Shown here: positions 7,933 through 16,697 of the stretch, piece after piece
How the letters are laid out: each line of letters begins with the position of its first letter
Position numbering within the stretch: the stretch's first letter is position 1
IMG/VR virus record: IMGVR_UViG_3300046804_001233
Coordinates: 1 to 26,498 of that record
From: a virus
Length of the DNA stretch: 26,498 bases
Strand: one strand, 5' to 3'
Notes under the pieces: model-generated
What the model saw: the letters and a program-made list of their open reading frames with translations, nothing else
The model's database searches: none
What the model was told of the DNA's origin: nothing
Program-made: the position numbers and the translations under genes

Positions 7933-10900
7933 GTGGCAACAAACAGGGAAACAATTGAAATTGCCCTGTCAGGCCTTGAAAAGCTTAATCAGCTTGAGCG
8001 AACCCTAAAAGGGCTTGAAACTTATGCAGATAATGTTGCCGATGCAATTGGAGGGATTCAATCACGAATTGATGAGTTAAGCGGCGTTGCTGGAAGGGCA
8101 GCCACCAGAGCAAGAAGTGCAAGTGTTGCCGCAAGGGCAATTGGTGGCGTTGTTGGCGATAAGTCATTCGGCAGGGGTCCAAGTGGTGGCGAAACGCTCA
8201 AAAACAGGAATCGTCTTAAAAAGATTGCAGCAAGTGTAGACCTTGAGCTTCAGCAGTCAAGAACTGTTTTTCGGGAGGCGGCGAAAGCCAGAAGAGCGCT
8301 TACACCAGAGCTTGAAAAACTTGGAAAAGCGGCAAATCAAAATGCTCGCGAGCAGGCTAAAGTTGGCGCGGAATTAACAGAGTACAGAAAAACTGTTAGA
8401 TCGGCCAGGGAAAGAATTCTTGCTGGCGTGAGCGAGCTTGGCGCTCAAGCGAGAGGCAGGAGCACAAACATTCTTCGCAGTCGCTATAGAACGCAGAGGA
8501 ACAGGCTTAGCTCTGGACCTGAGCTGAGTGGCGAGCTTGCAAAACAAGCCGAAGAGCTTGAAAGAAAATTTGAATCTACGGAAAAAAGGCTCGCGCAGCT
8601 TGACAGGGCAGAGCGTGCGCTGAATCGAACCGTTAGAGCCGCGAATCCAGGGGCAAGCTCGTCAGAGCTGAGAGGAATTATTGGCAGAGAACGGGGTGCA
8701 ATTGCATCAAGCCGTAGAGCCACGGTAACAGAGCAGGGCAGACTGCTTGAGCAAAGACGGGAGATTGGGCGCGTAAGCCGTGGCAGAAGGCTTGTTGGTG
8801 CTCAGGGAACTATTCTCAGGGAAAGAATTAGCGAACTTGAAAGAGCTGGTGTAACACCAGGAAAGCTAAAAGCCGATGTTGGCGGCCAAAGCGTTGATTT
8901 GAGGACAATCTTGCAGCAGGCGTCGCAAGCGGCAAACCTAGCCGGCAAAAAGGGTGACATCAGAGGAAATGTAGAAAGAGCAAAGACACTTCTTGAAATC
9001 GCAAAAAATCAAGTAGCTGAGCTTGAGCGCGAAGAAAAACTAAAGAAAAAAATTGCCTCAGAAGACAAAAAACGAATTACAGAAGGAAACAGAGCTGTAG
9101 CCCAAGAAAGAAGAGCTATTCGCAGCATAGAAGTACAACAAAGAAGCATCGCCGAGCTTGCTGGACAGGGCACTGAAAATCTACCCAGTTTTCAGCGTGC
9201 TCAAGCGGCTGTTCAAAGTTTACCGCGACTTCAGCGCTCTGGTAATTATGCTGAATTCGCAAATGCTCTTGCAGACGCGACAACATATGCACGTTTTGCG
9301 CGTGATGATCTAAAAGCGAGAAGCCAGGTAACCAAGCGCACAAATAAGTACGAAGGAGAAATCAACAAAATTGCCGCAGACATTCTTGCTGGCAAGAAAG
9401 TTGAACGCAGTCAAGTTGATAAGTTGCTGAAGTTCAATGAGCTGCGGGCTGGGGGTGCTCCACAGCAGCTTGCGCTGCCTCCAGCTGCCCCAGGAGCCCC
9501 TGCATTCGGCGGTGGCGCCAGACCCGGCCTGAGAGGCGCAGAGAGCGTGATCGGCGGCGTTGCCCAGCCCAGGTTGGTTGAACGTCTCGGCGGCGCCAGA
9601 ACGGCAGAAGAGGCCCTGCAGGCACTGCCGGAAAAAGCAAAGAATGCCGGCAGAAAAGCAGGTCAACAGGCTGGCCAAAGTTTTGCAAAGGCATTCGCCC
9701 AAGCAACGCCTCTTGGCGTGTCAGATAAGCTGCTTTCCGAGTTTGGCGCTACAGCGAAAAAGCTGCCATCTCTTATCGGTGGAGCCGGGGCAGCTGGCGG
9801 CAGGCAGCTTGACCCACAGGCTGCTCAGCAGCGTCTTGCGCGTATTCTTGCCAGTGGTGCGACTATCTCTGGTCAGCTTGGCATTCTTGCGCAAAAGCGT
9901 TCTGGCTTAGACCCCTCTGATCCAAAGAGAGTTCGGGTTGAGACGACGTTGATTAGCCTGCAAAATACCTTGAATGCTACAAAGCAACAGGGCTTCAGGC
10001 TTACCAAAGATACGCTTGACGCGCTGGACGGTCAGCTCAATTCCGCAAGATTGCTGCTTACCGCAGAATCGGACATCAACAAGCTTAGAAAAGATGGGCT
10101 TGCTGTTGCCAAGCGAACTGGTCAGGGCCGCCTGCCCTCCCTGCAGCGGGACACCCTGACCTCCGGCCTGATCGAACTGGGCCGCGCTGACACCGCCGCC
10201 AAGGTGTTCCGTGGTGGCCGTAGTGGCGAGCAGGCCCTGAGCGATGCCATCAGGGCGTTCAACGCCGCCACAGGCCCGCAGAAGCCTGGTGCGAGAGTCA
10301 CGCAAAAGGGCGTGCCGATCGGCAGGGAGGCTGCGGCCGGCGCTGCCGCCGCTGGCCAGAACGTTGCAAATACCCTTTCTGGTGCAATTTCAAATGGTAC
10401 CAGCAACGCCGCATCTTCAGGCACAAAGCTTGCATCTGCCATAACAAGAGCCATTGAAAAAGTTTTCGACATTAACAGCCCATCTGGGTGGGCCATTGGC
10501 ATTGCAAAGAACATCATCGGTACCTTGGCTGGAAATATTTCCGCTGGAGTTCCGACTGTTCAGTCAGCACTCAGGGACCTTCTTCGCTTTGTTGATCAGT
10601 ATTCAGAAGAAGGTAGGGCCGCTGCATCGGCATCTGTTGGGCGTTCGTTTGACTTTGCCGTTAAGTCGCCAACTCTTGGCGCTAATTACGACGCGCTTAA
10701 CCAGGCCATTGCTGACCTGACAATGAATTCGCCTCTTTACAAGAAGAGGATCGAATCAGTTGGCTTGCAAAATATGCCGACGCAGCTTCTGGGTGAAGCA
10801 AGTGCGCGTGGAACTTTGCAGGATTTAATGCCTGAGCTGAAGATTGAGCGTATGTTCAAGCAGCTGCCTGGCACTCTTGAAAGAATGCTTGACGATGCTT

Positions 10901-13900
10901 TTGTTAAGTCAGCAAACAAGTACAGTTCGACTCGATTTGTGTCAAGTCAGCTGTCACCGGCAACGGCTGGACTCGCTGGTGCCTCACCACTTAACCCAGG
11001 CATTTTGTTTGGCTCGGCTGGTCGTCTTCGCGGAAAGACTCCTCGTGGTTTTTCTGGTGCCGGATCTCCAATTTTCAATGCACCAACATCGCTTCTTGAC
11101 CTGAATCCCGACATCTGGAACACCCAGTCCTCCTTCCTTTTTGGCCAAAAGCCATCAGGTCGGCGTAATCCTAGCATTATGCCAATCTTTGGCTCTACTG
11201 CATTCACCGGCAGAACGTCCGGTCAATCGCTTGGCTCCACTTCAACCTTTAGCTTTGGCAATCCAGTTGATGAAGCCGCTCAAGCCCTTGAAAGAAGTCA
11301 GCAAGAAGTTCAGAATGGAGAAAATGCTCTTCGTGCTAGCGTTAAAAACTTCTTTGCCGAGCTTCGCAGTGGCGTAAACTTTGCAAGAGAATTCTTGGGT
11401 CAAGCTGGCGGTGGTGGCGGTGGTGGCCGCCCTCCTGTGCCCCCTGGCGGAGCTGGCGATTTTGAGGGCCAAATTGAGGGTGCTCGTGGCAATGCCCAGA
11501 GACTCCTGGGCCTTGCAGATCTTGCTGATCTTTCTAATGCAAGCAACAAACAGCTTCAGCTGTTCTCAGCTGCTCTTGCGGAAACACGTGATGGTCTGAA
11601 GGCTACAGATGCCGCATTTGGCAAGATTAACAAGGTGCTTGATCGCACCGAAGACGCACTTGCTCGCCGCGACCCTAACTCTGATCTGCTCGTCCGTGGA
11701 TTCGGCCGGAGAGGCGGCCAGGCGGTCGGGGAGGGCCTGATCGGTGGTGCGTTCCCCCTCCTGTTCGGTCAGGGCGGTGGGGCGGCACTGGGAGGCGGTC
11801 TGGGTGGCGCTCTGGGCGGCTTTGCTGGCGGGACGTTGGGCTTCGGCTTGTCGCTGGCCGGCACGGCGATCGGCAGCCAAGTGGATGCGTTGGCCCAGGC
11901 TGCACAGGACACTGGCAACTTGCTCAGGGATCTGACTGGAAATTTTGAGCAAATTAAGGACTCCGGGCTTCTTGCAAGCCGTAGCCAGGAAAAGCTTGTA
12001 GAGAATCTTTTGGAAGCTGGCAACAAAACAGCTGCGTATGCAATTCTTCAGGCTGAGTTAAACAGAAAAATCGGGGTAGAGGGCGCCGCAAAGCTTATCG
12101 CTGCCGCTGATGCCGGCGATCGACTCAAGCGTGCGATGGCAGATCTTGGAGTGCAAATGCAAGTCTTTATTGCAGGACCACTCGCTGAATTTCTCAATCG
12201 AATGACATCCATTCTCGAAGAATGGAACAAAAGCGGCACCGTGGCAACTGCGCTTGGTCAGGTATCTGGGGACAAGCAAAGAGAAGCGCTACTTACCACT
12301 CTTGCAAGAGAAAATATTGCAGCTGGCGCCAATCCACAAAAAAGCGGCGTTAATTTTAGGCGGGGTCCGCTTGGCAGTGTTCCTGTTGGGCCTGGGGCGT
12401 TTGGCGCAACCGGTCCAGATCTGCTTAAGGATATTACCTCAAATCTCTCAAGTGAGAGAGTGCGTGAAATTGTCGGTCAATTTGCATTACCCAAGAAACA
12501 ACAGCAATTAACGCCGCAGCAACAGCGTCAAGAGACGGCTAGGGCTGCAGAAACTGGTCAAGCGGCTGCTCAGCGACAACTTGACTTCTTCAGCAAAAAA
12601 AATGAAGTACCCGATCTTCTGAGGGGATTCAAGCAGCAGGCACTGGCCGCTCAACGCGAGCAGCAGGATCTTGATCGCCAATCCTTTGAGCTGCGTCGTG
12701 ACTACGAGCGCCAAATTGAGGATATTCGTCGCAACATTGAAGATCGGATCAATCAGATCCGCCAAGAAAACCAGCAAAGAGAGCTTGAGATTCTTGTCAA
12801 GCAGGGGCAGATCCGTGAGCAGCAGTTCAAAAATGCTTCTACTGCGCTTCAGAGTGCCCTTGCTGGTGATCCGCTAGCCCAAAGCCTTGCAGATGCTGTA
12901 ACGACGTATCTCGGCGCTCAGATGTCTGCTCAGGACCAGCTTGAGCAGCGTCGTAAGCAATTTGAGATTGAGATCAGTAGCCAACAACTTGAAACTGAAA
13001 AGTTTAAGCTTGAGGTTGGCCGCACTCTGTCAAGGCTTAACACTGATACGGCCGAAAAGGTTGCTGAAATTAACAAAGGCGTAAGGCGCAAAAACGAAGA
13101 TGCAGCATTGAATGAATTTAAAATTCAAAAAGAATCTGCAAAACTGCGGGCTCAGGTAATTGGTCAAGAGCTAAAAGTAATGCTTGCCAAGCAGAATCAG
13201 TTCGTTCAAGAAGCTCAAGCCCAGTACCAAAGATTTCCAATTCCAGACACTAAGGCACTCGTTGAAAGCGAGCAAAGACTTCAGCAAGCTTTGCAAAATG
13301 CTGTTAGTGGTTCGGCGCAGAACATTAAAGACATTGAAGCTGTTAAGCCACCTCAACTGCTTCGCGAGGTTTCCGGCCCAGCAGCTCGCTCCGTCAGCTT
13401 TGCTGGCGTCAATCAGGGAATCGCCAGGGCCAAGCAACTTCGCGAGCAGCTTCAGGGGCTTGAAAAAGAACTGCTCGATCTTGTCAAAGGTGGCAACCTT
13501 GAGCTTTTCGCAAATCAGCTTGGTGAAATTGCTTTCAAGGGCTTTTTTGATCTGAATAATTCCCTGAAAAATGCAAAACAGGAAGCTGCATTAGCGGGTG
13601 GTGACATAGGCGCATCTGTTAGGGCAATTGTAGACTCCTACAACGATCTGTTTGCCCTTGCCCAGCAAACTGGTGTAAATATTGATGCGCCAACGCGCAA
13701 GTTTATTGAAGGCATCAGAGACGGTCAGATTGCATTTGAGAAGATCAAGCCAAGCATGGAGTTCTATGCTTCCAATCTTCAGGACATAACGAATCAGACC
13801 AAACAATCTCGCGCTGCCATTGACGAACTGCTGCTGCCGGCCAAGGCTTATGACAAAGTGTTGGCTCAGATCAATGCACGCGGTGGGCTTGGCATCAACC

Positions 13901-15801
13901 CAGAGGAGGAGCAACTACTACTCAAGCAGGCTAGGGCTCTCGATGAGCTGAATGCAAAAGCCAAGGTTTTTGAAGGGCTAAGGGACATCGCATCTAGCTG
14001 GACCGATTCCTTTGCCCAGCTCAACAAAGAACTGCTGAAGGGCGGCGACTTACTTGAATCCGTGCAGCGCTTTGCTGAAAGCGTTGCAGATAGAACTCTT
14101 GACGTTGTTCTTGAGTTTACGCTTCGCCCAATTCAAGAACGCCTGTTCAAGAACATGGCTGATATTCTTGGCATCAAAGCGCCAGAAGATCCGGCCCTTC
14201 AGCCCATCAGGGAGACGGCTGTAAATACGAAAATTCTTGCCGATAAAGTGAAGAAAGAATTTGCTGGTCAAACAGGAGTGTCGCCTGCTCAGCCTGTTGC
14301 CCCAGCTAATGCGATTGTGCCGGGACCAGCTGCCACTGCAGCAATGACCGGCCGCTACATGCAAGGCAATGTCGGCCCCACTTCAACCGGCGATCACTTC
14401 CATGTAATGCGCCGCGACGGCTCTTATTACGGCCGCTCTGATCTTGATAAATACGTGGAAGTCAATGGTCGCCCATTGTCGTCTGGTGTGACAGTTCCGG
14501 GCGGTGAATATGGCGCCGAAAGAAGCTACGGCCCCCACTCTGGCAGAGACTACGCCTTCAGGAAGGGCGCTTCACTTGGCCTGATGAATGGAGCGCAATG
14601 GATTGGTAACAAGCCTGGCACAGGAGTTGGCGATAGAACCGCGTTTATGACACCCGATGGCAAGGTGTACGAAATTATCCATGGTCGGTTCATGGGTTCT
14701 GCAACGCCAATGAAGCCAGTTGCAGCGCCTGGCTTTCAGGTTCCGGGATCTCCTCTTGATGGTAAGCCGGCTCCACTGCCTGGATCAACAATACTGCGCA
14801 AGTTAATTCCTGCCGGCACAGCGATTCCGATGAAGCCTGGCGATGCCGGCTATGAGCAGCCTGGGCCATTTGGCACGCCAGCGCCGATTCAGCAGATTCC
14901 TTTTACTGAACAACAACAGCCTTCGCCTGTCACCCCGGCTGCTCAAGGAGCCGCTGAAGCGCTTGCAAATCTTGATGAGGTTGCACGAAAGGCGGTCGAA
15001 GGCTTCACTGGCTTCGGTGAAAGCATGTCCGAGTTTGCAACCAAGACCACTGATTCAGTCACAAAGTTTCAGCAAATTGTTGGCACCGGCTTGCAAGCAA
15101 TCACCGGAATCGCAATGGGTATCGGTGGCGCTCAAATGATCCGTAGAGGCGGGGCTTACAACACGCTGATGGGTGCCGCTTCCATCTTCGGTTCCATCAG
15201 CTCAATCACCGGCATGTTCGGCACTGGCGGTCCGCTGTCTGGCCTGTTCGGCGGGAAGGCCCCATCTGCCACTGCCAGCGCTTTCATGATGCCCCAGCTG
15301 ACCGGCGTCCCAGGCGGCGCCAGAGCCCTCGGCGGGCCGGTCTACGAGGGCATGGACTACCTCGTTGGTGAGCAGGGGCCTGAGGTCATCAGGATGGGCG
15401 CCAACGGGACCGTGGTGCCCGCTGATGAGCTGTACGTCCCCGGCCTGGATGACGAGGGCTTCAGCGCTCCCCCGATCGGTCGCTATGCCCGCCGTGCCGC
15501 AAGCAACGCTGAAAGCAGCGAAATGCAAGATGGCGATACCATCTACACCGGTAACTACGGTCGGGCGGTTCCGTATCAGCGCAGCGAAAGCACACGCGAG
15601 ATTGAACGGCTTGAGCGCGTTACCTCCAATCCCGGTGAGCTGCCTCCGATCAAGTACGAAACCACTCGTGTCAACGAGTATGATTTCGTCACCCCTGAGC
15701 AGCTTGAAGCGTCCAATGTGCGGACTGCTAAGATGGCCAGAAATCAGACGATTCGTGAGTTGGCTGATAGCCTGAAAACTCGCAAGCGTCTGGGGCTCTG
15801 A
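7933..15801 (+). CDS. Tape measure protein with embedded M23-like peptidase domain
   Basis: A 2622-aa protein with GTG start (an in-frame TAA at 7912-7914 excludes an earlier one). It sets tail length; at roughly 0.15 nm per residue the tail would be near 0.35-0.4 micrometre. Seen in order: long Ala/Arg/Glu-rich coiled coils (about 1-500); DINSPSGWAIGIAKNIIG (about 846-863), the '..I.SPS......G..i..G' motif of many tape measures; a Gly-rich hydrophobic stretch, probably membrane-inserting (about 1263-1315); more coiled coil (about 1520-1790); a metallopeptidase-like domain (about 2135-2255) with HFH 2155-2157, HxxxD 2202-2206 and IIHG His 2250; then YLVGEQGPEV (about 2476-2485), the usual tape-measure C-terminal repeat-like motif, and a charged end. 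The peptidase would open peptidoglycan during DNA entry. Several short internal patches have much higher GC than the rest. Confidence 0.93.
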   Translation: MATNRETIEIALSGLEKLNQLERTLKGLETYADNVADAIGGIQSRIDELSGVAGRAATRARSASVAARAIGGVVGDKSFGRGPSGGETLKNRNRLKKIAASVDLELQQSRTVFREAAKARRALTPELEKLGKAANQNAREQAKVGAELTEYRKTVRSARERILAGVSELGAQARGRSTNILRSRYRTQRNRLSSGPELSGELAKQAEELERKFESTEKRLAQLDRAERALNRTVRAANPGASSSELRGIIGRERGAIASSRRATVTEQGRLLEQRREIGRVSRGRRLVGAQGTILRERISELERAGVTPGKLKADVGGQSVDLRTILQQASQAANLAGKKGDIRGNVERAKTLLEIAKNQVAELEREEKLKKKIASEDKKRITEGNRAVAQERRAIRSIEVQQRSIAELAGQGTENLPSFQRAQAAVQSLPRLQRSGNYAEFANALADATTYARFARDDLKARSQVTKRTNKYEGEINKIAADILAGKKVERSQVDKLLKFNELRAGGAPQQLALPPAAPGAPAFGGGARPGLRGAESVIGGVAQPRLVERLGGARTAEEALQALPEKAKNAGRKAGQQAGQSFAKAFAQATPLGVSDKLLSEFGATAKKLPSLIGGAGAAGGRQLDPQAAQQRLARILASGATISGQLGILAQKRSGLDPSDPKRVRVETTLISLQNTLNATKQQGFRLTKDTLDALDGQLNSARLLLTAESDINKLRKDGLAVAKRTGQGRLPSLQRDTLTSGLIELGRADTAAKVFRGGRSGEQALSDAIRAFNAATGPQKPGARVTQKGVPIGREAAAGAAAAGQNVANTLSGAISNGTSNAASSGTKLASAITRAIEKVFDINSPSGWAIGIAKNIIGTLAGNISAGVPTVQSALRDLLRFVDQYSEEGRAAASASVGRSFDFAVKSPTLGANYDALNQAIADLTMNSPLYKKRIESVGLQNMPTQLLGEASARGTLQDLMPELKIERMFKQLPGTLERMLDDAFVKSANKYSSTRFVSSQLSPATAGLAGASPLNPGILFGSAGRLRGKTPRGFSGAGSPIFNAPTSLLDLNPDIWNTQSSFLFGQKPSGRRNPSIMPIFGSTAFTGRTSGQSLGSTSTFSFGNPVDEAAQALERSQQEVQNGENALRASVKNFFAELRSGVNFAREFLGQAGGGGGGGRPPVPPGGAGDFEGQIEGARGNAQRLLGLADLADLSNASNKQLQLFSAALAETRDGLKATDAAFGKINKVLDRTEDALARRDPNSDLLVRGFGRRGGQAVGEGLIGGAFPLLFGQGGGAALGGGLGGALGGFAGGTLGFGLSLAGTAIGSQVDALAQAAQDTGNLLRDLTGNFEQIKDSGLLASRSQEKLVENLLEAGNKTAAYAILQAELNRKIGVEGAAKLIAAADAGDRLKRAMADLGVQMQVFIAGPLAEFLNRMTSILEEWNKSGTVATALGQVSGDKQREALLTTLARENIAAGANPQKSGVNFRRGPLGSVPVGPGAFGATGPDLLKDITSNLSSERVREIVGQFALPKKQQQLTPQQQRQETARAAETGQAAAQRQLDFFSKKNEVPDLLRGFKQQALAAQREQQDLDRQSFELRRDYERQIEDIRRNIEDRINQIRQENQQRELEILVKQGQIREQQFKNASTALQSALAGDPLAQSLADAVTTYLGAQMSAQDQLEQRRKQFEIEISSQQLETEKFKLEVGRTLSRLNTDTAEKVAEINKGVRRKNEDAALNEFKIQKESAKLRAQVIGQELKVMLAKQNQFVQEAQAQYQRFPIPDTKALVESEQRLQQALQNAVSGSAQNIKDIEAVKPPQLLREVSGPAARSVSFAGVNQGIARAKQLREQLQGLEKELLDLVKGGNLELFANQLGEIAFKGFFDLNNSLKNAKQEAALAGGDIGASVRAIVDSYNDLFALAQQTGVNIDAPTRKFIEGIRDGQIAFEKIKPSMEFYASNLQDITNQTKQSRAAIDELLLPAKAYDKVLAQINARGGLGINPEEEQLLLKQARALDELNAKAKVFEGLRDIASSWTDSFAQLNKELLKGGDLLESVQRFAESVADRTLDVVLEFTLRPIQERLFKNMADILGIKAPEDPALQPIRETAVNTKILADKVKKEFAGQTGVSPAQPVAPANAIVPGPAATAAMTGRYMQGNVGPTSTGDHFHVMRRDGSYYGRSDLDKYVEVNGRPLSSGVTVPGGEYGAERSYGPHSGRDYAFRKGASLGLMNGAQWIGNKPGTGVGDRTAFMTPDGKVYEIIHGRFMGSATPMKPVAAPGFQVPGSPLDGKPAPLPGSTILRKLIPAGTAIPMKPGDAGYEQPGPFGTPAPIQQIPFTEQQQPSPVTPAAQGAAEALANLDEVARKAVEGFTGFGESMSEFATKTTDSVTKFQQIVGTGLQAITGIAMGIGGAQMIRRGGAYNTLMGAASIFGSISSITGMFGTGGPLSGLFGGKAPSATASAFMMPQLTGVPGGARALGGPVYEGMDYLVGEQGPEVIRMGANGTVVPADELYVPGLDDEGFSAPPIGRYARRAASNAESSEMQDGDTIYTGNYGRAVPYQRSESTREIERLERVTSNPGELPPIKYETTRVNEYDFVTPEQLEASNVRTAKMARNQTIRELADSLKTRKRLGL

Positions 15802-15804
15802 TCG

Positions 15805-16293
15805 GTGAAAAGTGAATTTGCAATCGTTAGCTACGTCCGCTTCAAGGAGCGTGGGGGAGGGGACTACCTTCCCTACGCCTACCAGAACTACTACATCAAC
15901 GAAACTCGCACTTACGGTGGAGTCGATTACGACTTTGCTCCTTTGGGTGTTGCTGGCGGGGGTGGCAAGCAAGGTGGAGAGCGGAGCAGGGGCGCAATCG
16001 TTTGCCCAGCTAACACGATCGCTCAAAATATCTTTTGGCAAGCTGACTCCAACAAGTGGTTGGTTGAAGTCACGTCAGTTGAAATTGACACCGTAACAGA
16101 GCAAGAGCTGACGCAGCTAACCAGGGTGATCTGGGCGTGCAAGGTTGAAGGAAGTATTGAGATCGGCAAACCAGGCCAGTCGGTGCTTCAGCTTTTTAGT
16201 CCACTTGATACTGTAAATGCTACAGTTGGCGGTAGACCGCTTTCACAGTCACTTGTGGGAGCGCTGCCAACATCTGGAGCCATTTCCGTATGA
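15805..16293 (+). CDS. Minor tail protein at the tail tip (gpM/gpL-like position)
   Basis: GTG 15805, four bases after the tape measure stop, gives 162 aa. It is beta-rich, with YQNYYINETRTYGGVDYDFA (strand pair), a Gly-rich loop, then KWLVEVTSVEIDTVTEQELT, CKVEGSIEIGKPGQSVLQLF and an ending SPLDTVNATVGGRPLSQSL... The end 'L.SPLD.v.a.....l....vG.LP.sG' resembles the C-terminus of lambda minor tail proteins M/L, and the gene order (tape measure, this, NlpC peptidase, gpJ) is that of lambda M-L-K-I-J. Only two Cys are present, so the four-Cys iron-sulphur site of gpL is absent. A distal-tail (Dit-like) role is an alternative. Confidence 0.55.
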   Translation: MKSEFAIVSYVRFKERGGGDYLPYAYQNYYINETRTYGGVDYDFAPLGVAGGGGKQGGERSRGAIVCPANTIAQNIFWQADSNKWLVEVTSVEIDTVTEQELTQLTRVIWACKVEGSIEIGKPGQSVLQLFSPLDTVNATVGGRPLSQSLVGALPTSGAISV

Positions 16294-16697
16294 GCCTTCA
16301 TCATTTCCTTGGGCTGAAGCATGAGTTTGGGGCTGATCCGAAAGACGGAAAAGCAGCTGACTGCCTCCTTTTGTGTTTCGCCCTCCTTGATGAAGCTGGA
16401 ATTTACAGGCCACAGTTTGATCCGCGCTGGATGGATATGGCGCGATCTGGACTTTGGAGTTCACTGGAGATGGCATGGAATCACAATACCTGCTCCATCG
16501 GTTCTGTTGAGGCTGGCTGCGTAGCACTTTACTGGAACAGGCCGACTCCCAAGCACCCGCGACTTGGCATCTGCACTGTCGTTGAAGATAGTGGCAATCT
16601 TGGCGTCGTTATGATTCACGCAAGAAAAGGCGTTGTCTGGCTGCCGCTTACAACTCCTGGACTTCCTAAGTTCAACTTTCGCCGTTTCAAGGAATGA
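16290..16697 (+). CDS. NlpC/P60-like tail tip peptidase (gpK-like)
   Basis: A 135-aa protein, ATG overlapping the previous stop (ATGA 16290-16293). HEFGADPKDGKAADCLLLCF (11-30) fits the NlpC/P60 nucleophile motif G......g..DC, with Cys25. SVEAGCVALYW (72-82) stands where the 'GDlv.f' strand is expected, and NLGVVMIHARKGVVWLPL (103-120) fits the strand holding catalytic His, here His110. It is about the size of phage tail NlpC peptidases (lambda gpK C-terminal domain, GTA orf14), which cut the stem peptide of peptidoglycan at the tail tip. The 'D.R.....M' helix between the motifs is also usual. The stop overlaps the gpJ-like start. Confidence 0.7.
   Translation: MSLHHFLGLKHEFGADPKDGKAADCLLLCFALLDEAGIYRPQFDPRWMDMARSGLWSSLEMAWNHNTCSIGSVEAGCVALYWNRPTPKHPRLGICTVVEDSGNLGVVMIHARKGVVWLPLTTPGLPKFNFRRFKE

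Follow-up and report, generated by a model that had tools for sequence, protein, structure and literature searches.

The tape measure gene and its neighbours

Our analysis covered a viral DNA stretch of 26,498 nucleotides (IMG/VR record IMGVR_UViG_3300046804_001233, hereafter the window). Its genes include an open frame of 2622 amino acids that lies between head genes and tail-tip/fibre genes (Table 1) and fits a tape measure protein (TMP) in both size and position. The assignment is further indicated by the tail gene neighbours, by 59-61% identity over about 1470 residues with the large ORFs of two other contigs (L001 and L002), and by matches to PHROG tail length tape measure families, which are weak (E 0.0022 and 0.0067).

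Behind a Pro/Ala linker the tape measure protein carries motifs of M23, which is among the commonest and best-studied families of cell-wall peptidases. The canonical motif order in M23/LytM enzymes is HxxxD, then the His of a YxH-type strand, then HxH. An earlier note, made from the sequence alone, had described these motifs in the tape measure protein with HxH ahead of HxxxD and the last His, and had read them as a true circular permutation. We could verify every motif residue, its position and the order, and the span given there (14341-14700) needed a minor correction, the homologous unit being located in the same place at about 14344-14703. A census of His residues counted four in the entire protein, which are the four motif His; there is therefore neither an HxxxD upstream of HFH, which the note had named as a way back to the normal order, nor an HxH downstream.

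Two genes follow the tape measure gene. A gene of the phrog_25799 type, as found directly behind it, also adjoins the tape measure gene in many relatives of group 1 (see below; tblastn). The ORF after that had been termed NlpC-like, a label that we do not retain, as this ORF had no match in Pfam, PHROG or NCBIfam. It has a stretch with Cys (AADC) and one with His (MIHARKG); its counterparts beside L015 and L018 read ACCF at the Cys stretch.

Table 1. Features in and behind the tape measure gene, with positions in the window.
Feature	Position	Strand	Basis
Tape measure protein ORF	7933..15801	+	Open frame, 2622 aa
Permuted M23 domain, residues 2138-2257	14344..14703	+	Similarity to TMPs L003-L018, L037-L040
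First half, C-terminal half of canonical M23 (GxxIGxxGxTGxSTGPHxH...)	14344..14457	+	Profile A1 matches to LytU, LytM
STGDHFHV: H2155 (LytM His291, catalytic), H2157 (LytM His293, zinc ligand)	14383..14406	+	Alignment
YYGRSDLDKYV segment	14425..14457	+	Translation
New linker, old C-terminus to old N-terminus	14458..14508	+	Gap between matched halves (hhalign)
Second half, N-terminal half of canonical M23 (HxGxD ... GxV ... YGNxV ... DG ... YxH)	14509..14691	+	hhalign; PF01551 in relatives
YGPHSGRDYAF: H2202, D2206 (LytM His210, Asp214, zinc ligands)	14527..14559	+	Alignment
IIHGRF: H2250 (LytM His260, catalytic), new C-terminus of domain	14674..14691	+	Invariant HG in A1
Next tail gene, 162 aa, phrog_25799	15805..16293	+	PHROG family
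135-aa ORF, termed NlpC-like in the earlier note	16290..16697	+	AADC and MIHARKG stretches

Profile and predicted-structure comparisons with M23

The window domain on its own has no Pfam match and stays below the Pfam gathering cut-off for PF01551, and single-sequence searches against Pfam, PHROG and the PDB returned nothing useful. Because both the family motif order and the Pfam threshold fail, the domain is not an ordinary member of M23. The failure of single-sequence searches to detect M23 would fit motifs that look like M23 by accident in a protein of great length and low complexity, but the family is conserved in many contigs and isolates and its profile scores are far above those of shuffles. 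The PDB profile matches and rotation scans refute this explanation, whose probability we regard as practically nil.

A profile of 16 relatives (A1) was compared with all PDB sequences and matched four entries, three of which are M23, LytU (5kqb) with E=0.0013 and LytM with 0.059 for its two sequences. All three matched as two stretches whose order was swapped. Profile positions 49-87 fell on LytU residues 13-51 and positions 6-35 on residues 98-127; in LytM, positions 8-36 fell on residues 99-126. For profile-profile comparison (hhalign) with canonical M23, represented by 10 phage and 5 bacterial sequences, it was always the profile of the known M23 family that was rotated, while the window sequence was left as is. 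The unrotated profile scored 43.0 and aligned with its N-terminal half only, whereas the tandem (doubled) profile scored 57.2 in a single alignment of 98 columns with the His and Asp residues in register. The second half aligned family columns 70-122 with M23 columns 22-76. The rotation scan gave its highest scores with breakpoints from 76 to 100 of 127, in the stretch that separates the YxH strand from the GNTGxSTG loop, and controls remained far lower (mean 12.3 and maximum 21.0 for 200 column shuffles, 10.3 for the reversed profile). An independent canonical set of 35 viral M23 sequences (alignment A4) gave an increase from 45.0 to 64.9 on rotation, against a shuffle maximum of 22.0, and the increase was found for both groups of relatives taken separately (31.7 to 47.2 for group 1, 34.9 to 46.8 for group 2).

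Accordingly, the domain consists of the old C-terminal half (glycine loop and HxH strand), a new linker whose length varies among relatives, and the old N-terminal half from HxxxD to the YxH strand; its new ends, as placed by the alignments, fall in the stretch from the YxH strand to the GNTGxSTG loop. Compared with M23 (PF01551; LytM, LytU, MepM, ShyA), both halves are homologous, the three motifs are present and predicted strand lengths and spacings agree after rotation. The differences are the reversed halves, the position of the ends and an HxD in place of HxH in many relatives. We regard it as highly likely that the window domain is homologous to M23 and circularly permuted.

The structure of the domain predicted with AF2 (pLDDT 79.8, pTM 0.77) was used for Foldseek searches. 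Against BFVD it matched a phage tape measure fragment, the P60 internal virion protein and the S-TIM5 virion protein with probability 1.00; against the PDB no M23 structure was among the best 50 matches listed. The M23 domain of cyanophage Pf-WMP4, a canonical control run through the same pipeline, found LytM, ShyA and others at E < 1e-8 with dozens of matches. A miss is to be expected where a sequential aligner meets a permutation, and it is neither proof nor refutation. The strands of the second half measure 4/4/10/7/11 residues in the window model and 4/3/10/8/10 in the canonical M23 model, with their order rotated. Counted from the zinc-ligand Asp, strands start at D+8 in both models and at D+16 (window) versus D+15 (canonical), and the His of the last strand is its sixth residue in both. 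Strand pairs correspond as well (RDYA/SLGL versus LDFG/RAL; GRYMQ and FHVMR versus canonical VIALT and HLHLEVT), and a rotation scan with secondary structure only favoured the same breakpoint, weakly (62 vs 58.5).

Tape measure proteins are multimers, and the HxH half of one copy might complete the HxxxD half of its neighbour in trans. With such a domain swap, no permuted fold in a monomer would be needed to account for the split halves. However, the AF2 model is a monomeric domain, and the two halves, joined by a short linker, always travel as one compact module among otherwise dissimilar proteins, and we regard an active site in trans as decidedly unlikely.

Relatives in phage virion proteins and their putative active sites

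The same unit of 119 amino acids, with 54-81% identity and the same motif order, is encoded on 18 IMG/VR contigs, and a wider scan with alignment A1 extended this number to 93 contigs. The earlier note had suggested a search for such domains in other tape measures; these exist, and all relatives, which split into two groups, have the HxH half first. Group 1 (L001-L018, L036-L040) comprises large tape-measure-like ORFs. The TMPs of L003-L018 and L037-L040 match the window protein at about residues 2093-2294, mostly at 2140-2257, and are mostly dissimilar in the rest; the permuted unit is therefore an exchangeable module. Group 2 comprises internal virion proteins of about 1000 amino acids from T7-like Synechococcus phages, among them the cyanopodoviruses DSL-LC07, P60 (gp33) and S-CBP1. 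These proteins end within few residues of the HG of the last His, so that the permuted domain closes them. At the end of three relatives (L060, L054 and L118) positions 3-51/96 of PF01551 were matched.

N-terminal to the permuted unit, DSL-LC07 has a glucosaminidase domain and P60 a phage-lysozyme match that is below the cut-off. A second wall-lytic domain is paired with the permuted M23 in four cyanophage virion proteins (L019, L020, L126 and L131), in L020 as the match below the cut-off. In P60 gp33 (L020) residue 876 is the last one covered by the PHROG family, directly before the permuted domain (877-1000), which suggests that the latter is a separately acquired C-terminal module. Matches in Shewanella MSO-5, Vibrio and Acinetobacter phages were discarded as chance matches without the motifs, and those in BillNye and CHP58 proved to be M23 in canonical order. 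Scans of about 85,000 prokaryote genomes (two, starting from short peptide patterns) and of plasmids, which reach close relatives only, revealed no relatives, and neither did a scan of viral contigs with the S-TIM54 domain.

The virion structural proteins of the cultured cyanophages S-TIM54 and S-TIM66 pass the Pfam cut-off for PF01551 (E=1.8e-11 and 3.1e-9) with the halves swapped. In S-TIM54, M23 positions 89-119 are found at residues 497-525, followed by positions 5-79 at residues 539-609, and the motifs in this order (GNTGSSSGPHAHIEF, NHNGIDI, AHL) are those of textbook M23. PHROG and NCBIfam profiles likewise place the C-terminal half of MepM at 497-520 and the N-terminal half of a peptidoglycan hydrolase at 538-601. 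The proteins of S-TIM5 and S-TIM61 have the same swapped order. In hhalign, S-TIM54/66 and the window family align colinearly (E=2.3e-11); the S-TIM54/66 proteins also contain a Phage_lysozyme2 domain. With these sequences, the swapped PDB matches, the rotated and tandem profile scores above all shuffles and the strand lengths and spacings that agree after rotation, the permutation proposed in the earlier note is supported.

Upstream of the permuted unit, at about residues 404-450, the proteins of S-TIM5 (L213) and S-TIM66 (L131) contain a degenerate M23-like segment (VKEGDKVEIGQIIG) without HxH, which in S-TIM5 gave a SpoIIQ-like NCBIfam match (E=0.0045). This segment may be a relic of a tandem duplication that could have yielded the permutation. 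As such a state is an intermediate when a permutation arises by tandem duplication, one might see in the permuted domains only remnants of two canonical M23 copies, with HxH left from a lost upstream copy and HxxxD from a truncated downstream one. Such remnants are, however, very improbable, since the window protein has no upstream remnant (four His only, with the Pro/Ala linker ahead), nor does DSL-LC07, where the glucosaminidase domain is found instead, and the unit of two halves is kept as one module over many proteins.

In LytM, zinc is bound by His210, Asp214 and His293, and His260 and His291 are catalytic (PMC4594094). Among the equivalent positions, alignment A1 shows no variation at the first His of HxH, at the Asp of HxxxD or at the terminal His-Gly. 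In the window H2202 and D2206 align with the HxGxD column of M23, H2250 aligns with its YAH, in the context IIHG instead of YAHL, and the HxH is formed by H2155 and H2157. The position of LytM Tyr204, to which oxyanion stabilisation is attributed, appears to be taken by Glu2196 in the alignment of profile A1 to LytM, with Tyr2193 and Tyr2199 nearby. All five residues are kept in the window, L001, L009, L036-L040 and S-TIM54/66/5. The second His of HxH is replaced by Asp in most other relatives, including all 25 group 2 and 12 group 1 sequences counted, and the His of HxxxD is kept in group 1, whereas in group 2 it is one residue nearer to the Asp and P60 lacks it altogether. The earlier statement that this is not a decayed domain is thus supported for the window copy, and it does not extend to the whole family. 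Since Asp replaces the zinc-binding second His in so many of them, some HxD relatives may, judging by their sequences, be altered or inactive. In the HxD forms, for example in L003-L008, L011-L018 and L046-L102 (PHFDIK, PHLDVK), a zinc ligand of canonical M23 has thus been exchanged in a conserved manner.

The LytM domains of EnvC and NlpD have structural or regulatory functions without catalysis, and the window domain might similarly be an M23-derived fold of this kind. The Asp in the HxH of so many relatives and the shifted or absent His of HxxxD in group 2 and P60 would fit such a role. We nevertheless consider it unlikely, given that the complete set of five residues persists in the window and the relatives named above, that A1 is invariant at the first HxH His, the HxxxD Asp and the last His, and that group 2 and S-TIM proteins bear a second wall-lytic domain.

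Possible function, origin and significance

We consider it highly likely that residues 2138-2257 of the tape measure protein represent a complete circularly permuted M23 domain of the LytM type. As its residue set is complete and it is located in a tape measure protein, the window copy is probably a working zinc peptidoglycan endopeptidase that is used at DNA ejection. The tape measure protein would exit the tail as infection begins, and the permuted domain would then fold in cis in the periplasm and bind zinc via H2202, D2206 and H2157. H2250 and H2155 would activate water, and the cutting of peptide bonds in the peptidoglycan would give the DNA a local passage through the wall.

In a tree of 94 columns, computed from sequences aligned half by half, groups 1 and 2 cluster in a single clade (support 100/99). 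The free tree search placed the S-TIM sequences apart from the other permuted sequences; a constrained tree with all permuted sequences together had a better likelihood than the free search and was not rejected (p-AU 0.73), and one origin of all permuted sequences is possible from these data. We may speculate, as a tentative scenario, that a single ancient permutation founded an M23 lineage confined to phage virion proteins, whose zinc site drifted to His-Asp-Asp (HxD) and thereby to a different use of metal or a different substrate specificity, perhaps for walls of the cyanobacterial type.

M23 domains of the canonical type occur in tape measures and lysins of phages (e.g. TomSawyer, Thermus phage G20c, Pf-WMP4), where a virion or tail protein likewise includes a wall peptidase domain. 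Unlike the window domain, the canonical phage M23 sequences read here have the normal motif order, and the internal protein of cyanophage A4 (9k2v) is matched to M23 end to end by sequence and fold searches. A precedent for natural permutation of a wall hydrolase fold exists in the NlpC/P60 superfamily (YaeF, LRAT, Tox-Act1), (PMC6403190, PMC12994826), which is unrelated and has a cysteine papain-like fold. The open-access literature searched, a scope that leaves out most subscription papers, contained no description of a permuted M23, LytM or Peptidase_M23 domain. The virion proteins of P60 (gp33), S-CBP1, DSL-LC07 and S-TIM5, which have the same permuted domain, carry no annotation beyond virion, internal or tape measure protein. 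A circularly permuted M23 therefore seems to be new, and the domain apparently unnamed in the virion proteins of cultured cyanophages.

An M23 permutation would explain why model cyanophages in culture (P60, S-CBP1, S-TIM5) have this unnamed domain in their virion proteins, and permuted M23 enzymes can escape profile searches that are bound to motif order. Permuted NlpC/P60 members act on lipids, i.e. their substrate has changed (PMC12994826, PMC6403190), and this shift raises the question of whether permuted M23 enzymes cut peptidoglycan.
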